Source: a virus. From it: 27,113 nucleotides of DNA. The stretch is from positions 1 through 27,113 of the IMG/VR virus record IMGVR_UViG_3300048065_000122, one strand, 5' to 3'. Under the pieces are notes generated by a model. The model searched no databases and was not told where the DNA came from. It was given only the letters and a program-made list of their open reading frames with translations. A program made the translations under genes and the position numbers. This document shows positions 3,386 to 24,816 of this stretch, one piece after another (within the stretch, counting starts at the first letter, position 1; every line of letters starts with the position of its first letter).

Positions 3386-5048
3386 TGTACCACAGGCTCT
3401 ACATGACTTTAGGAACTTTACGTACCTAGTCTGGCAACATCTGGGGTTACCAGAGCCTACCCCAGTACAGTATGACATTGCTAACTATCTTCAACACAGT
3501 CCCAAGCGTTGTATCATCGAAGCATTTCGTGGTGTGGGTAAATCCTATATCACAGCCGCCTACGTTGTCCACCAGCTACTGCTAGACCCTGACAAGAAGT
3601 TTATGGTAGTCTCTGCATCTAAGGCTCGTGCTGATGACTTCAGTACGTTTACACAGCGTATTATCACAGAGATACCTATCTGTCAACACCTAGTGGCTAA
3701 AGAAGGTCAACGCTGGTCTAAGATTGCCTTTGACGTAGCACCTGCTAAAGCCTCTGGTTCTCCCTCAGTAAAGTCTGTGGGTGTTACTGGACAGCTTACT
3801 GGTTCTCGTGCTGACGTTATTATTGCAGATGACGTGGAAGTACCTAACAACAGTATGACACACATGATGCGAGAAAGACTTGCAGAGAGTGTAAAAGAGT
3901 TTGACGCTGTTCTAAAGCCTGACGGTAACATTATCTACCTTGGTACACCACAGAATGAGATGTCCTTGTACAACACACTGACTACTCGTGGCTATGATAT
4001 GCGTATCTGGCCTGCTCGTTACCCTACCCTAGAACGCTCTGAAAAGGCGTATGGTAGCCGTCTTGCACCTACACTGTATGATTCTATACAAAAAGAAGGA
4101 GAGGCTCTCTATGGCCTTCCTACAGACCCTAAACGATTTACAGATGATGACTTACTAGAAAGAGAACTTAGTTATGGACGCAGTGGCTTTGCTTTACAGT
4201 TTATGCTGGACACCTCACTCTCCGATGGTGACAAGTATCCACTTAAACTCAGTGACCTCATCGTGTATTCATGCGATAGAGATACAGCTCCAGAAAAAAT
4301 GGTCTACGGAATTTTTAGACCTCTCACAGAGCTACCGAATGTTGGACTGAGTGGTGACCGTTTCTACGCCCCTGAGGACACTCTAGGTCGTTCAGAGTAC
4401 TCTGGTAGCGTTTTAGCCATTGACCCCTCTGGTAGAGGCTCTGACGAGACTGCATACGCTGTTGTAAAGATGCTTAACGGTTTCTTGTATGTGGTAGATG
4501 CTGGTGGTGTAGAGGGTGGTTATAGTGACAATACACTACAACACCTCACTGACCTAGCTAAGTTACATAAAGTAAACTCTGTATTGATTGAGAGTAACTT
4601 TGGTGACGGTATGTTTACTGAACTACTGAAGCCTTATGTAGATAAGACGTACCCAGTGACTATAGAAGAGGTACGACACAGTAAACAAAAGGAACTACGT
4701 ATCATTGATACACTAGAACCTGTTATGAACCAGCATAGATTGGTCATAGACCCTAAGGTTATCATTAGGGATTACGATAGTGTACAGCATATGCCCCCTG
4801 AGAAGGCGGCTAAGTACATGCTTACATACCAGATGACACGTATAACTAAGGCTCGTGGAGCTTTAGCACACGATGATAGGCTTGATGTGTTAGCTATGGC
4901 TGTCCAGTATTGGGTAGACCAGATGGCTAGTGACGCTGATAGTGCCATGAGGGAACGTAAGAGTGAGCTTATGGATGCTGAATTAGACAAGTTTATGAGG
5001 AATGTTAATACAAGTACTATGAAAGTAAGTAGTAGTACATGGTTCTAA
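3378..5048 (+). CDS. Terminase large subunit (T7 gp19 / DNA maturase B type)
   Basis: 556 residues, close to T7 gp19 (586). The N-terminal ATPase carries a Walker A motif, R51-GVGKS (52-56), and a Walker B motif VIIADD with D151/D152. The C-terminal RNase H-like nuclease shows the expected acidic residues: D349 (AIDPSGRG), E405 (LIESNFGDG) and the D499/D500/D503 cluster (HDDRLD). It pumps DNA into the prohead through the portal and cuts concatemers. The TAA stop at 5046-5048 lies inside the phage-type promoter motif at 5045-5061. Confidence 0.96.
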   Translation: MTNVPQALHDFRNFTYLVWQHLGLPEPTPVQYDIANYLQHSPKRCIIEAFRGVGKSYITAAYVVHQLLLDPDKKFMVVSASKARADDFSTFTQRIITEIPICQHLVAKEGQRWSKIAFDVAPAKASGSPSVKSVGVTGQLTGSRADVIIADDVEVPNNSMTHMMRERLAESVKEFDAVLKPDGNIIYLGTPQNEMSLYNTLTTRGYDMRIWPARYPTLERSEKAYGSRLAPTLYDSIQKEGEALYGLPTDPKRFTDDDLLERELSYGRSGFALQFMLDTSLSDGDKYPLKLSDLIVYSCDRDTAPEKMVYGIFRPLTELPNVGLSGDRFYAPEDTLGRSEYSGSVLAIDPSGRGSDETAYAVVKMLNGFLYVVDAGGVEGGYSDNTLQHLTDLAKLHKVNSVLIESNFGDGMFTELLKPYVDKTYPVTIEEVRHSKQKELRIIDTLEPVMNQHRLVIDPKVIIRDYDSVQHMPPEKAAKYMLTYQMTRITKARGALAHDDRLDVLAMAVQYWVDQMASDADSAMRERKSELMDAELDKFMRNVNTSTMKVSSSTWF

Positions 5049-5061
5049 AGTTGACCTAGAG
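5045..5061 (+). promoter_or_regulatory. Phage RNAP promoter candidate, terminus-proximal (phiOR-like position)
   Basis: The sequence CTAAAGTTGACCTAGAG differs at one position (T to G, two before the putative +1 G) from the two identical copies at 10916 and 20084. It overlaps the stop codon of the large terminase gene. In T7 a promoter (phiOR) lies in the equivalent place downstream of gene 19, near the right terminus. Transcription would run into the gene-free region. Confidence 0.65.
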
Positions 5062-9251: not shown

Positions 9252-10912
9252 AGAAGAGCAGTAGAGAATACATGGACAGACTACGCAAGCAGGACATGAG
9301 CCTTGAGTACAGGGCAGTCAATGGACTACAGCGTACAGCTTGGACTATTGATAAGGGTGTGCTTGATGTGATGCGTAAGGCATGGGATAGTAACCAAGAG
9401 TGGGCAGGGTTGCCACCTCGTTATGACCTAGACCTACCAGAGTATCCATTCAATAAAGACCCTCAGGATATGGATGAGGCTGAACTACAAAAGTATAGAG
9501 AGTGGGCAAAGAAACGTAACGCTATCTATACATTCAACGGAAAGTCTATGTCACGTAGACTACAGGTTGAACGGACAATACAACTAGCGGAACAGTACGC
9601 TAACTATCCAGAGTTTTATTTTGTATGGCAGTTAGATTTTCGCTCAAGAAAATATCCAGTAGAAAGTTTTATGTCACCACAGGTGGCTGATTGGGGCAAG
9701 GCTCTGTTACTATTTAACAATGGGTTTCCAATCAATAACTTTGATGATGCTTACTGGCTTGCCATTCATGGTGCTAACCTGTTTGGTAATGATAAGGTAT
9801 CGTTTGATGAACGTGTCCAGTGGGCATGGGAGAACGAAGACAACATCGTTAAGACTGCTGAGAACCCACTTGACTACACATGGTGGCAGGAAGCAGACAA
9901 GGCATGGCAGTTCTTGGGTTGGTGCTTTGAGTGGTATGGTCTACTGCGTGAGGGTTGGGGTTTCTATACTCACCTACCCTGTGCGGCAGATGGTTCATGC
10001 AATGGACTGCAACACCTGTCAGCTATACTTAGGGATGAGGTAGGTGGTAAGGCTACCAACCTGATACCATCAGACAAACCTGCTGATATCTATGCAGATG
10101 TGGCAGACAAGGCAGTAGCCCTGATACAAAAGGACGCACAAGAGGGTAACGAACTTGCACAAACGTGCTTGACATTCGGTATCGACAGGTCTATAACTAA
10201 AAGACCAGTGATGATTGTGCCATACTCAGGTACTCAACACGCCTGTCGTGAGTATATCCAAGAGGCTATCACTGACAGGATAGAGAAGAAGGGAGTAGAC
10301 AATCCGTTTGGTGATGACCTGTTCCAAGCTGGTCTGTACCTAGCAGGTCATGTGTGGCAGGGTATCAATGATACTATCGCATCAGCACGACAGGTCATGG
10401 ACTATGTAAAGCTTGTGGGTAAGCACTATGGTGAGGCTAGTAGACATATGGAATGGGTGACACCAACAGACTTTCTTGTGGTGCAACCATACTTCAACAC
10501 TAAGAAGCGTCTTATCAAGACACACGTTGACGGTAACTTAGTATACCTGAGTTACCAACAGGAGTTGCAGGACACAGTGAACAAGTCACGCATCTCAACA
10601 GGGGCATCACCTAACTTCATTCACTCGTTGGATGCGTCAGCCTTGACCTTGACTATCAACCAGTGTATGGATAAGAACATGATGGACTTCAGCATGGTGC
10701 ATGATAGCTATGGGACACACAGTCCTAACATGGATATCATGAGCCGCATACTGAGGGAAGCTTTTGTAGATATGTATAAGAAACATGATGTACTACAGGA
10801 GTTACGTGACCATGCAGTAGAGACTATCGGTGATAGTTCTATACCACAACCACCATCGACAGGTGGGTTAGATTTAGATAGGGTATTGGAATCTAATTAT
10901 TTCTTTGGGTGA
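9248..10912 (+). CDS. Phage RNA polymerase, catalytic C-terminal fragment (T7 gp1 type)
   Basis: 554 residues from a TTG that overlaps the preceding TGA (TTGA), with GAGG at 9239-9242 five bases upstream. All T7 RNAP catalytic residues are kept: D248 in ADGSCNGLQHLSA (T7 D537), K318 and Y326 in TKRPVMIVPYS (T7 K631, Y639, same spacing), and D486 in VHDSYGT (T7 D812). The C-terminus ESNYFFG matches the T7 end ESDFAFA. The specificity-loop region (about residues 399-425) diverges from T7, as expected for a different promoter. Together with the preceding frame it should transcribe from the promoters at 10916 and 20084. Confidence 0.93.
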   Translation: MKKSSREYMDRLRKQDMSLEYRAVNGLQRTAWTIDKGVLDVMRKAWDSNQEWAGLPPRYDLDLPEYPFNKDPQDMDEAELQKYREWAKKRNAIYTFNGKSMSRRLQVERTIQLAEQYANYPEFYFVWQLDFRSRKYPVESFMSPQVADWGKALLLFNNGFPINNFDDAYWLAIHGANLFGNDKVSFDERVQWAWENEDNIVKTAENPLDYTWWQEADKAWQFLGWCFEWYGLLREGWGFYTHLPCAADGSCNGLQHLSAILRDEVGGKATNLIPSDKPADIYADVADKAVALIQKDAQEGNELAQTCLTFGIDRSITKRPVMIVPYSGTQHACREYIQEAITDRIEKKGVDNPFGDDLFQAGLYLAGHVWQGINDTIASARQVMDYVKLVGKHYGEASRHMEWVTPTDFLVVQPYFNTKKRLIKTHVDGNLVYLSYQQELQDTVNKSRISTGASPNFIHSLDASALTLTINQCMDKNMMDFSMVHDSYGTHSPNMDIMSRILREAFVDMYKKHDVLQELRDHAVETIGDSSIPQPPSTGGLDLDRVLESNYFFG

Positions 10913-10915
10913 TTC

Positions 10916-10932
10916 CTAAAGTTGACCTATAG
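10916..10932 (+). promoter_or_regulatory. Phage RNAP promoter, middle genes
   Basis: CTAAAGTTGACCTATAG, identical to the copy at 20084. The CTATAG end equals the conserved core of T7-class promoters, which places +1 at G10932. It lies four bases after the RNAP stop and gives a 36-nt leader to the SSB gene at 10968, with an AGGAG site inside the leader. It would drive the replication and nucleotide-metabolism genes. Confidence 0.8.
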
Positions 10933-20058: not shown

Positions 20059-20083
20059 TAGGGGGTTTAATCGCCCCCTATTT
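20059..20083 (+). terminator. Rho-independent terminator after the ribonucleotide reductase gene
   Basis: TAGGGGG (20059-20065) and CCCCCTA (20074-20080) form a seven-pair stem, extendable by a G-T pair, with a loop of six to eight bases, followed by TTTCT. It closes the middle transcription unit directly in front of the promoter at 20084. The T-run is short, so efficiency may be partial. Confidence 0.7.
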
Positions 20084-20100
20084 CTAAAGTTGACCTATAG
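20084..20100 (+). promoter_or_regulatory. Phage RNAP promoter, late structural genes
   Basis: CTAAAGTTGACCTATAG, identical to 10916-10932, followed by GC. +1 would be G20100. It stands between the terminator and the first structural-block gene and should drive portal, scaffold, capsid and tail genes. Confidence 0.8.
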
Positions 20101-22587: not shown

Positions 22588-23382
22588 ATGACAGACAGAT
22601 TAAACACACATAATCCAGAAACAGAAGCGGCAGAACCAGCAGAACACACTGCCGCAATGCTAGAGAAGGCTGACCAGATTGAAAAGAATAATCAATCTGA
22701 AGAAAGACCTGAGTGGCTTCCTGAGAAGTTTAAGTCAGTAGAAGACATGGCACAAGCCTACAACTCTCTAGAACAGAAACTAAGCTCTAATAATGAAGAC
22801 GATGATGAGGGTGAAGTTGAAGATGTAGACCCATCAGAGGTAGAAGAAGTACCCTCTAGTGGTGAAGTAGAAGAAGTACTAGATAAAGTAGGTCTAGACT
22901 TTGATGTGTTCCAACAAGAATACAGTGAGAATGGTGAGCTATCTGCGGATGCTTATGAAGTTCTAGAAGAAGCTGGTTTTCCACGCTCACTGGTAGACAA
23001 TTACATACAAGGACAAGAAGCACTGACAGCAGTGAACACTGAGTCAATGTATGACATTGTAGGTGGTGAAAGTAATTATGAACAGATGACAACTTGGGCA
23101 ACTGAGAATATGTCTGAAGCTGATATTGATGCTTTCAACACAACTATTGAGACAGGTGATGCAGACCTTATGCGGTTTGCAATCCAAGGGCTAGAGGCAA
23201 GGTATCGTTCCGAAGTAGGAAATGAACCACAGCTTATTCAAGGGAATAATGCTCCTGTATCGGGTGGGAAATTTGATAGTGCCGCTGAACTGACTGCGGC
23301 TATGCGTGACCCCAGATACGCCAAAGACCCTGCCTACCGAAATACTGTTGCCCAGAAATTGGCACGTAGTTCGGTGTTTTAA
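22588..23382 (+). CDS. Capsid assembly scaffolding protein (T7 gp9 type)
   Basis: 264 residues (T7 gp9: 307), very acidic, with long Glu/Asp tracts around residues 70-100, then predicted helices. The N-terminal part contains RPEWLPEKFKSVEDMAQAYN, a block typical of podoviral scaffolds. The C-terminal block AMRDPRYAKDPAYRNTVAQK also recurs in this family, where it contacts the shell. It lies between portal and capsid genes, as in T7, and would fill the prohead before leaving during maturation. Confidence 0.9.
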   Translation: MTDRLNTHNPETEAAEPAEHTAAMLEKADQIEKNNQSEERPEWLPEKFKSVEDMAQAYNSLEQKLSSNNEDDDEGEVEDVDPSEVEEVPSSGEVEEVLDKVGLDFDVFQQEYSENGELSADAYEVLEEAGFPRSLVDNYIQGQEALTAVNTESMYDIVGGESNYEQMTTWATENMSEADIDAFNTTIETGDADLMRFAIQGLEARYRSEVGNEPQLIQGNNAPVSGGKFDSAAELTAAMRDPRYAKDPAYRNTVAQKLARSSVF

Positions 23383-23392
23383 TCTGTCTCAT

Positions 23393-23429
23393 GGGAGTGA
23401 GGGATGTCTCCTTTCCGTCCCTCTCTCCT
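23393..23429 (+). repeat. Purine/pyrimidine hairpin after the scaffold gene
   Basis: GGGAGTGAGGGA (23393-23404) pairs with TCCCTCTCTCCT (23418-23429) at ten of twelve positions around a 13-base loop. The right arm shares 23424-23429 with the left arm of the long stem at 23424-23443, so the two structures exclude each other. Confidence 0.6.
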
Positions 23430-23577
23430 TCTAAATACATGAATACACCCCCGAAGTTACGCCATTCGTGCAAAAGATTCGCTACCTTAGGACGTTATAT
23501 ATGGTCGCTCTTGGCAGGTGTCAGGTCGAGGAAACAGGTAATGCTGTCCTCGCCCTTTTTGTGTATTTAGAAGGGGA
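23424..23577 (+). ncRNA. Candidate structured RNA element with 20-bp closing stem
   Basis: Positions 23424-23443 pair with 23558-23577: sixteen consecutive pairs with one G-U, then two G-U and two A-U pairs, twenty in all. The enclosed ~114 nt can form a branch closed by ACACC (23445-23449) with GGTGT (23517-23521), extended by GCCA (23461-23464) with TGGC (23512-23515), and the terminator-like hairpin 23524-23555. This makes a three-way junction. The structure competes with the flanking hairpins at 23393-23429 and 23572-23585. It could be a processing or stability element, a regulatory switch for capsid expression or a separate small RNA. I match it to no known RNA family. Confidence 0.6.
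23524..23560 (+). terminator. Terminator-like hairpin in the capsid leader
   Basis: GGTCGAGG (23524-23531) pairs with CCTCGCCC (23548-23555) with one mismatch, ACAG (23534-23537) continues with CTGT (23544-23547) beyond a two-A bulge, and five T follow (23556-23560). It has the form of an intrinsic terminator. Placed upstream of the most highly needed late gene, it is either leaky, ignored by the phage RNAP or part of the larger structure. Confidence 0.6.
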
Positions 23578-23585
23578 CTTCCCCT
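23572..23585 (+). repeat. Short hairpin AGGGG-ACTT-CCCCT
   Basis: A five-pair stem with a four-base loop. The left arm is also the outer end of the long stem's right arm (23558-23577), so formation of one prevents the other. A further small hairpin, CCCT-TGCG-AGGG, follows at 23621-23632. Confidence 0.55.
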
Positions 23586-23706
23586 AACACGAAGCAAGAA
23601 TACAAACTATTACCACTGACCCCTTGCGAGGGACAATCTTTGATAAAGGATGTAATAAATGCAGAGTGTGTTTTACTCAACATTTTTTACTAAGAGGTAA
23701 TTAATC

Positions 23707-24816
23707 ATGGCAATGCAAGCCGCTTCAAACCCAGCTTATGATGTAAGCTATCAGGGTCAAAATAACAATACAGGTGATGTTCGTAACCTGTTCCTAAAAC
23801 TATATGCTGGTGAAGTTCTTACAGCTTTTGAAGAAAAGAACATCATGATGCCTTTGGTACGTACACGTACTATTTCAAAAGGTAAGTCAGCATCATTCCC
23901 AATGACAGGCCGTGCGTCTGCTGAATACCTAACCCCAGGAAATGAAATCACTGGTGGTCAGATTCGTGCAGGTGAGCGTGTCGTGTCTATTGATGACCTG
24001 TTGATTAGCTCACAGTTCATTGCAAACATTGACGAAGCAATCAATCACTACGATGTACGTTCTATCTACTCTAAAGAAGCAGGTATTGCACTTGCTAAAG
24101 AAGCAGATAAGAACATTCTACGTCAGGCACTTAAGGCTTCTCTAGCAAGCAACGCAACTCGTGCTGGCGCACTTGTTCAGGATTACACTTCATTCACTGA
24201 AGAAGACTTCACTGACAACGTGACAATCGGTACAGCGGCGGCTGACGTTACAGACCCAGCCAAGCTAGCAAAAGCTATCTTTGATGCTAAGAAAGAAATG
24301 GACACAAAGAACGTACCATCAGACGGTGCTTTCGTTGTTCTGCCACCTGCTCAGTACTACGCTCTTATGGACGTATCTGACGGTTCTAAGCTGACATTCA
24401 TGAACCGTGATTACGGTGGGAATGGTTCAATCGCATCTGGTACAGTACCAATGATTGCTGGTATGCCTGTGTATATGTCTAACCACCTAGTAGTAGCTGA
24501 CTTGATTGAAACATCAGGTGTTTCTAAGGGTCAGTCAAAGGGTCAACGCCCACTGGCTAACACTGCTGGTTCAGGCCGTACAACTGCATACGACATCACT
24601 AACACTACAACAGATGGTGTAAACCTTGTTGACATTGCGGCAAAAGCTCGTGGTCTAGTTATGACCCAAGACGCTGTTGCTACAGTTAAGTTGTTGGACT
24701 TGGGCGTAGAGTCTGAGTATCAAATCAACCGTCAGGGTACATTGATGGTAGCTAAGTACGCAATGGGACATAACGTCCTGCGTCCAGCTAACGCAATCGC
24801 ACTTCTGTCTGCGTAA
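23707..24816 (+). CDS. Major capsid protein (T7 gp10 type)
   Basis: 369 residues (T7 gp10A: 345). The N-terminal arm is followed by DVRNLFLKLYAGEVLTAFEE, TRTISKGKSASFPMTGRASA and TPGNEI, the standard signature of T7-like capsids with an HK97 fold. Central blocks are SIDDLLISSQFIANIDEAIN and FVVLPPAQYYALM. The codons look optimised towards a recurrent set, as expected for the most abundant virion protein. A second frame of the T7 10B kind is not evident: after TAA a further in-frame TAG follows. A long structured leader precedes it, and a strong terminator follows at 24827. Confidence 0.96.
   Translation: MAMQAASNPAYDVSYQGQNNNTGDVRNLFLKLYAGEVLTAFEEKNIMMPLVRTRTISKGKSASFPMTGRASAEYLTPGNEITGGQIRAGERVVSIDDLLISSQFIANIDEAINHYDVRSIYSKEAGIALAKEADKNILRQALKASLASNATRAGALVQDYTSFTEEDFTDNVTIGTAAADVTDPAKLAKAIFDAKKEMDTKNVPSDGAFVVLPPAQYYALMDVSDGSKLTFMNRDYGGNGSIASGTVPMIAGMPVYMSNHLVVADLIETSGVSKGQSKGQRPLANTAGSGRTTAYDITNTTTDGVNLVDIAAKARGLVMTQDAVATVKLLDLGVESEYQINRQGTLMVAKYAMGHNVLRPANAIALLSA

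Follow-up and report, generated by a model that had tools for sequence, protein, structure and literature searches.

The stretch of DNA analysed here, referred to as the window, comprises 27,113 bases of IMG/VR record IMGVR_UViG_3300048065_000122 and belongs to a T7-like phage. Its T7-like gene set includes a single-subunit RNA polymerase, a primase/helicase, a DNA polymerase, and a ribonucleotide reductase, and further genes encode a head-tail adaptor, a head assembly protein, the major head protein, a tail protein, and terminase. The head assembly/scaffold gene (stop at 23382) and the downstream major head protein gene (ATG at 23707) are separated by a capsid leader. A preliminary description of this DNA had remarked on the lack of an ORF in these 324 nt before the capsid gene, and indeed no ORF of 60 aa overlaps the gap. 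The leader is predicted to fold with an energy of -98.4 kcal/mol, compared with -79.6 +/- 5.5 for dinucleotide shuffles (z -3.4; as low in 0 of 100). A megablast search of the leader region against named phages yielded no match. The structural features are listed below.

23383 to 23706, + strand: capsid leader, intergenic, 324 nt, containing RNA structure (from the fold)
23393 to 23429, + strand: 5' flanking G+C-rich hairpin (from the fold; its loop varies among relatives)
23427 to 23440, + strand: 5' arm of the outer covarying stem, extending to 23424-23443 (19 distinct arm pairs with compensatory changes)
23446 to 23554, + strand: cassette in the apical loop, consisting of a predicted 23S-antisense domain and a 3' hairpin (from presence or absence among relatives)
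23524 to 23554, + strand: 3' hairpin of the cassette (its sequence varies between phages)
23561 to 23574, + strand: 3' arm of the outer covarying stem, extending to 23558-23577 (19 distinct arm pairs with compensatory changes)
23572 to 23585, + strand: 3' flanking hairpin (from the fold)

The 20-pair stem proposed earlier (23424-23443 with 23558-23577) can be read directly from the letters, which give 20 paired positions with three G-U pairs among them. Its reality had been tied to compensatory changes in related phages, and such changes are present. We read leaders from the capsid loci of the best 80 of at least 599 relatives, as ranked by capsid protein. A pattern matched both arms of the outer stem in 66 of the 87 leaders. 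These yield 19 different arm pairs, in which 259 of 266 cells are paired, a value equalled by none of 2000 re-pairings of the 3' arms. Positions 5, 8, 9, 10, 12, and 14 (of 14) have changed on both sides.

Other parts of the initial structural picture require revision. The view that the flanking hairpins and the long stem are mutually exclusive was overstated, because only the bottom six pairs compete; the minimum-energy fold contains both flanking hairpins together with 14 stem pairs (23430-23443 with 23558-23571). A terminator-like hairpin had also been assigned to 23524-23560, where a consensus scan of 23300-23760 calls no terminator (0.3 expected). Given that the folds largely coexist, that no terminator is called, and that no Rfam family applies, a regulated attenuator or switch is unsupported. 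An RNase III site or an excised small RNA, also raised in the preliminary description, is the option that agrees best with a stem that is long, double-stranded, and selected for pairing. Judged from its sequence, the outer stem thus fits best as an RNase III-like processing hairpin with putative cleavage.

Several additional elements were observed in and around the leaders. A second leader hairpin at 23617-23639 (UGAC-C-CCCU-UGCG-AGGG-ACAAUCU), present as a single copy in the window, has counterparts in the leaders of 79 of the 80 relatives, the remaining leader being cut short. Four different stems occur at this hairpin, and all are fully paired (CCCU/AGGG, CCCG/CGGG, CCUU/AAGG, and CUGC/GCAG). 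The capsid leaders of L025, L035, L040, and L043 carry a different insert at the 3' flanking hairpin, ~65 nt long and itself containing a hairpin, and this insert has no match to 23S or 5S rRNA longer than 9 nt and none in E. coli genomes. A 21-nt repeat resembling ATTCCTAAAGTTGACCTATAG occurs in three copies in the window (5041-5061, 10912-10932, and 20080-20100), which lie at or just past the points where the genes for terminase, RNA polymerase, and ribonucleotide reductase end. On sequence grounds this repeat is a candidate phage RNA polymerase promoter, and none of the window's three copies is directly upstream of the capsid gene. Scans for sigma-70 promoters and terminators found neither beside the window element nor in L126; L110 has one promoter-like sigma-70 site (1.1 expected) and L129 has one terminator.

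In most relatives the outer stem is capped by a loop of 4-24 nt, and in the window and a minority of other phages the loop holds a cassette of 115-122 nt. This large form occurs in five of the 80 capsid loci (L001, L047, L054, L057, and L071); contig ends shorten a few of the leaders surveyed. The cassette is present in L090 and missing from L051, L055, and L060 despite nearly the same flanks, and for this reason we regard it as an accessory unit carried in the loop of an existing hairpin. Because most relatives lack the cassette, it is not a general cause of high capsid output. The preliminary description was correct about the structure itself and did not recognize its interior as an accessory cassette whose conserved segments appear to be antisense to 23S rRNA. 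The consensus fold of the cassette is weak and formed mostly by invariant pairs (-8.0, with a covariation term of -0.06). Within its 3' hairpin, positions 23530-23539 often read GGAAACAGGT, in the same sense as E. coli 23S ~1381-1390, a likeness that is probably due to chance.

When the cassette is compared with E. coli 23S rRNA, whose numbering is used throughout, the following segments emerge.

23450 to 23461, + strand: CCCGAAGTTACG, a 12-nt exact complement of 23S 1686-1697 (from comparison with 23S)
23457 to 23472, + strand: TTACGCCATTCGTGCA, a 16-nt exact complement of 23S 1963-1978, the 3' side of helix 71 (from comparison with 23S)
23473 to 23477, + strand: an AAAGA linker in place of a helix 71 complement (from the sequence)
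23478 to 23493, + strand: the core, TTCGCTACCTTAGGAC, a 16-nt exact complement of 23S 1922-1937, the 5' side of helix 71 (from comparison with 23S)
23513 to 23523, + strand: GGCAGGTGTCA, an 11-nt complement of 23S ~1827-1837 with one G-U pair (from alignment to 23S)

The predicted target thus comprises the domain IV strands that flank helix 71, together with 1686-1697 and ~1827-1837, and includes the most highly conserved center of the bacterial large-subunit rRNA. Helices 71 and 68 are skipped, the latter lying between the targets of the core and of the last segment and having no counterpart in the cassette. The AAG of the linker (23474-23476) could pair in cis with CUU (23486-23488), and cis pairing is found in related elements as well. 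Alternatively, its sequence could allow it to pair with the CUU of 23S 1942-1944. The segment of 23S at ~1827-1837 is paired in some predicted hybrids (L087, L104, and L106) and unpaired in the window's own best hybrid.

This complementarity exceeds chance expectations. Only one of 5000 dinucleotide shuffles has a complement as long as 16 nt; the two best complements of the cassette sum to 32, compared with a maximum of 25 among the shuffles. The duplex energy of the window element with 23S rRNA is -94.9, versus -60.3 +/- 3.9 for 100 shuffles, where the energies leave out self-folding and permit long bulges. The pairing is interrupted, and uninterrupted duplex extends for only ~14-17 bp. In an alignment of 18 of the 21 cassette rows (L086 has an N, L100 begins inside the element at its contig start, and L148 is divergent), 32 of 42 invariant columns fall within the four antisense segments, and these segments cover 50 of the 119 window positions; the L120 row is partly misaligned in this alignment. 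A main invariant exception outside these segments is CACC, which can pair with the GGUG of the last segment. Departures from the perfect complement include seven transitions that keep a wobble pair versus two that break pairing (p 0.09), along with four transversions, as counted without L120 for one segment and without L148 throughout. This wobble bias is too weak to serve as proof of pairing. Overall, we consider it very probable from the sequences that the conserved cassette segments are antisense to 23S rRNA.

The core is not confined to capsid leaders, and in part of the unrelated phages it recurs along with the second segment. Element-specific patterns gathered the motif CGCUACCUUAG, which in most cases sits in a hairpin loop, from 62 IMG/VR contigs, the same viral contigs that supply CGCTACCTTAG; four named phages carry it too. 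The 62 contigs comprise 23 capsid leaders of the clade (one cut by a contig end), 10 full-type elements located elsewhere, and 29 others. Two or three of them look like chance occurrences: L115, with a long reading frame, and L151, with a 90-codon open frame, are probably of this kind, and L135 is doubtful. The core pattern itself was found in 39 viral contigs, including 17 capsid leaders of the clade and six members of one other family, compared with one contig for a control pattern with two letters swapped. Full-type elements lie downstream of the terminase gene in L104, L106, L116, and L120. In L127 the core is upstream of an endolysin gene and in L122 of a tail spike gene; L136 and L138 have it next to tRNAs or between them. 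Among the named carriers, Vibrio phages 150E35-1 and 1.031.O have it near tRNAs, with one base differing before CGC in 1.031.O, and the others are Lysinibacillus phage LC76P1 and, as a weaker case, Actinomycetia phage DSL-LC01.

In some instances (L108, L109, L116, the L128 family, L136, and L138) the core lies inside mechanically called frames of at least 60 aa, and the GenBank record of L108 has a short hypothetical protein there; we have taken these short frames as spurious. A search of GTDB genomes with the single pattern GTGCA-N-TTCGCTACCTTAGG returned three loci, none of them a genomic copy: L124 is 23S itself, and L123 and L125 were read as coding DNA. Among the matches listed in a plasmid search, only 23S-like matches of ~34 nt appeared. 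In L128, L131-L134, and L137, the core is located between two G+C-rich hairpins, as if it formed a stand-alone small RNA gene of ~100 nt.

The stems that close the loop AUUCGCUAC are specific to their contexts (e.g., CCUGAG/CUUAGG, GGCGC/GUGCC, and UUGG/CCAA). Folds made with an element's own flanks average -6.6, versus -4.2 +/- 0.6 when flanks are swapped, and none of 2000 swaps did as well. This comparison used 12 representatives of 27 contexts, chosen without window-type elements, near-duplicates, L135, L151, L139, and L148; L139 and L148 have no closing stem in the short fold. The flanks also differ in their relationship to 23S rRNA. Across 13 core-only contexts outside the window type, which count L148 and leave out L135 and L151, complementarity to 23S 1940-1985 is present in the 25 nt preceding the core (combined z -7.8 against single-base shuffles) and is not seen in the 25 nt that follow it (z 0.1). 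Complementarity beyond chance, as expected of a trans-acting antisense RNA, is therefore found for the window type and, beyond the core, in eight of the 13 other contexts (p 0.05 or less); it is not significant in L138, L140, L141, L143, and L145. Among the whole-element duplex energies listed, those of L127, L143, and L149 have little or no excess. By eye, a CGCC...GUGC segment is kept in L108, L117, L136, and L138, although L138 is not significant alone. Instead of this segment, L128, L129, and L140 (the last again not significant alone) carry CCGAC, which is complementary to helix 71 on its 5' strand.

No Rfam 15 covariance model matched the window at the gathering score, a 338-nt stretch searched at E up to 10 gave three sub-threshold hits only, and 18 other loci gave only tRNAs at the gathering score. 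Phage RNAs that target ribosomal RNA are not known to us, and among the papers listed, judged by titles and abstract openings and with subscription journals little covered, none describes one antisense to 23S rRNA, so that novelty is unproven. There are nevertheless partial likenesses to established systems. Bacterial trans-acting antisense small RNAs likewise present a conserved complement in a hairpin loop, but here the predicted target is 23S rRNA rather than an mRNA and two complements flank a target helix. GOLLD and ROOL are structured RNAs borne by phages, in some cases near tRNAs, as is true of some elements described here; however, they extend for several hundred nucleotides, and the cassette has no Rfam match at the gathering score. 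RNase III sites between phage genes of the T7 type also place a hairpin in a polycistronic leader, whereas some of the phages examined here have a loop that carries a cassette of 115-122 nt. Archaeal C/D box guide RNAs are complementary to rRNA, but the present RNAs belong to bacterial viruses and no modification is proposed.

RNA D of phage T4 (L156, 1554-1672), listed in its annotation as species 2, a small stable RNA, offers a further comparison. Like some of the elements above, it is a small phage RNA in a tRNA cluster with a hairpin-loop complement within the same 23S region: the loop of its 5' hairpin holds UCGCUACC, the complement of 23S 1929-1936. This loop is identical in T4 and nine T-even homologs (taken from the 40 listed of 704 records), among which the middle of the molecule diverges and the pair at the base of the stem varies (A-U, G-C, or G-U). 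In contrast to the window element, RNA D has only 8 nt of complement and no helix-71 partner segment. A second 8-nt complement, AAGGAATT, is not conserved and was dropped, leaving the loop alone. RNA D could represent a reduced version of an anti-23S small RNA, but with a match of just 8 nt, and with 8-nt complements no more numerous than chance would give (five seen versus ~5 expected, as estimated from length), we offer it as a lead only.

Because the closing stems are matched to their contexts and the 5' flanks are complementary to 23S rRNA, we favor the view that the element acts as RNA, by pairing with 23S rRNA. Our tentative proposal, to which we would give somewhat less than an even chance, is that a phage small RNA pairs with host 23S rRNA and blocks 50S assembly. 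The cassette would ride in the apical loop of the covarying stem within the capsid transcript, and RNase III or a similar enzyme would cut the outer stem to release the cassette RNA. Outside capsid leaders, the RNA would be made with tRNA clusters or late genes. In the mature 50S subunit the target region is packed, and pairing would therefore need immature or damaged rRNA. Perhaps the released RNA then pairs with 23S rRNA that is newly made or not yet mature, and whose H68/H69/H71 region remains flexible, thereby stopping 50S maturation or subunit joining, such that the host makes no new ribosomes late in infection. One report describes undocked pre-50S particles in which H68 is invisible and H69/71 are highly flexible, and relates a flexible H68 to a 50S subunit unfit to join the 30S (PMC11260487). 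On that account, the 23S site would fit a block in assembly.

The same RNA and target could serve other ends. The duplex might mark 23S rRNA, either nascent or from dead ribosomes, for cleavage, for the purpose of nucleotide recycling or rRNA clearance. A long bipartite complement could form duplex for an RNase III-type enzyme, and, as read from the sequences, GUGCA-type and CCGAC-type (L128, L129, and L140) elements both leave ~1938-1941 of the rRNA unpaired; with uninterrupted duplex as short as noted above, however, we consider this use quite unlikely. Alternatively, the RNA could shield 23S 1922-1978 against cleavage or modification near 1939-1942 by enzymes of the host or of a rival, as a form of counter-defence. 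The unpaired stretch lies where a mycobacterial MazF toxin reportedly cuts 23S rRNA, and some elements reside in tRNA clusters, which can serve counter-defence. Such protection seems very unlikely for a target that is buried in the 70S ribosome.

Other explanations dispense with an antisense RNA. The leader might act only in cis on the capsid mRNA, as an RNase III site or by affecting stability or translation, with the likeness to 23S rRNA being incidental. The outer stem does covary in those clade leaders that have it, and the second downstream hairpin covaries too. But the cassette is missing from most leaders and also turns up elsewhere in phage genomes, and what is conserved in it is the 23S complements, all of which makes an exclusively cis role decidedly unlikely. 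That the core falls within a stretch of 23S known as a homing-endonuclease target brings to mind a DNA-level element, either such a site or a fragment of rDNA inserted backwards. This was already disfavoured and is extremely improbable in light of closing stems that match within contexts and differ between them, a spacer unlike rDNA, and segments joined with helices 68 and 71 omitted. Finally, the opposite strand might be the product and act as an rRNA mimic, or decoy. A shortened core of domain IV is indeed what the reverse complement resembles, and the consensus folds of the two strands are nearly equal (-6.7 for the opposite strand versus -7.5, with L120 re-registered by gaps). Yet the loop-adjacent pair alternates between A-U and G-U on the + strand, and as the G-U pairs would read A-C on the opposite one, the likely product is the + strand, which is antisense to rRNA. 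Nearby genes agree with this orientation: tRNAs and family-matched neighbours (capsid, terminase, endolysin, and tail spike) are on the + strand except at L141, where the core lies between opposite-strand genes. All eight tRNA genes called by ARAGORN, in the four of 32 scanned loci that have any, are on the strand of the motif; for L109, GenBank places the tRNAs on the opposite strand, and ARAGORN and Rfam place them on the motif's strand. We therefore view a decoy as very improbable.

Returning to an antisense RNA predicted to pair with 23S rRNA, its recurrence in unrelated phages suggests that phage RNAs interfere with host ribosomes. A much broader claim would be that an anti-23S RNA spanning helix 71 and halting 50S assembly is carried by lytic phages that infect several bacterial phyla, whether it arose separately in them or spread by exchange. 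We regard this as unlikely, though worth stating. If it were true, phages would possess a weapon made of RNA that suits nearly any bacterium and whose target hosts can hardly mutate. If the pairing itself is real, it would provide a direct handle on how phages act upon host ribosomes, and it would explain a recurring motif of phage tRNA clusters and late regions that is missing from Rfam. It would also point to a short universal sequence that acts against 50S assembly.
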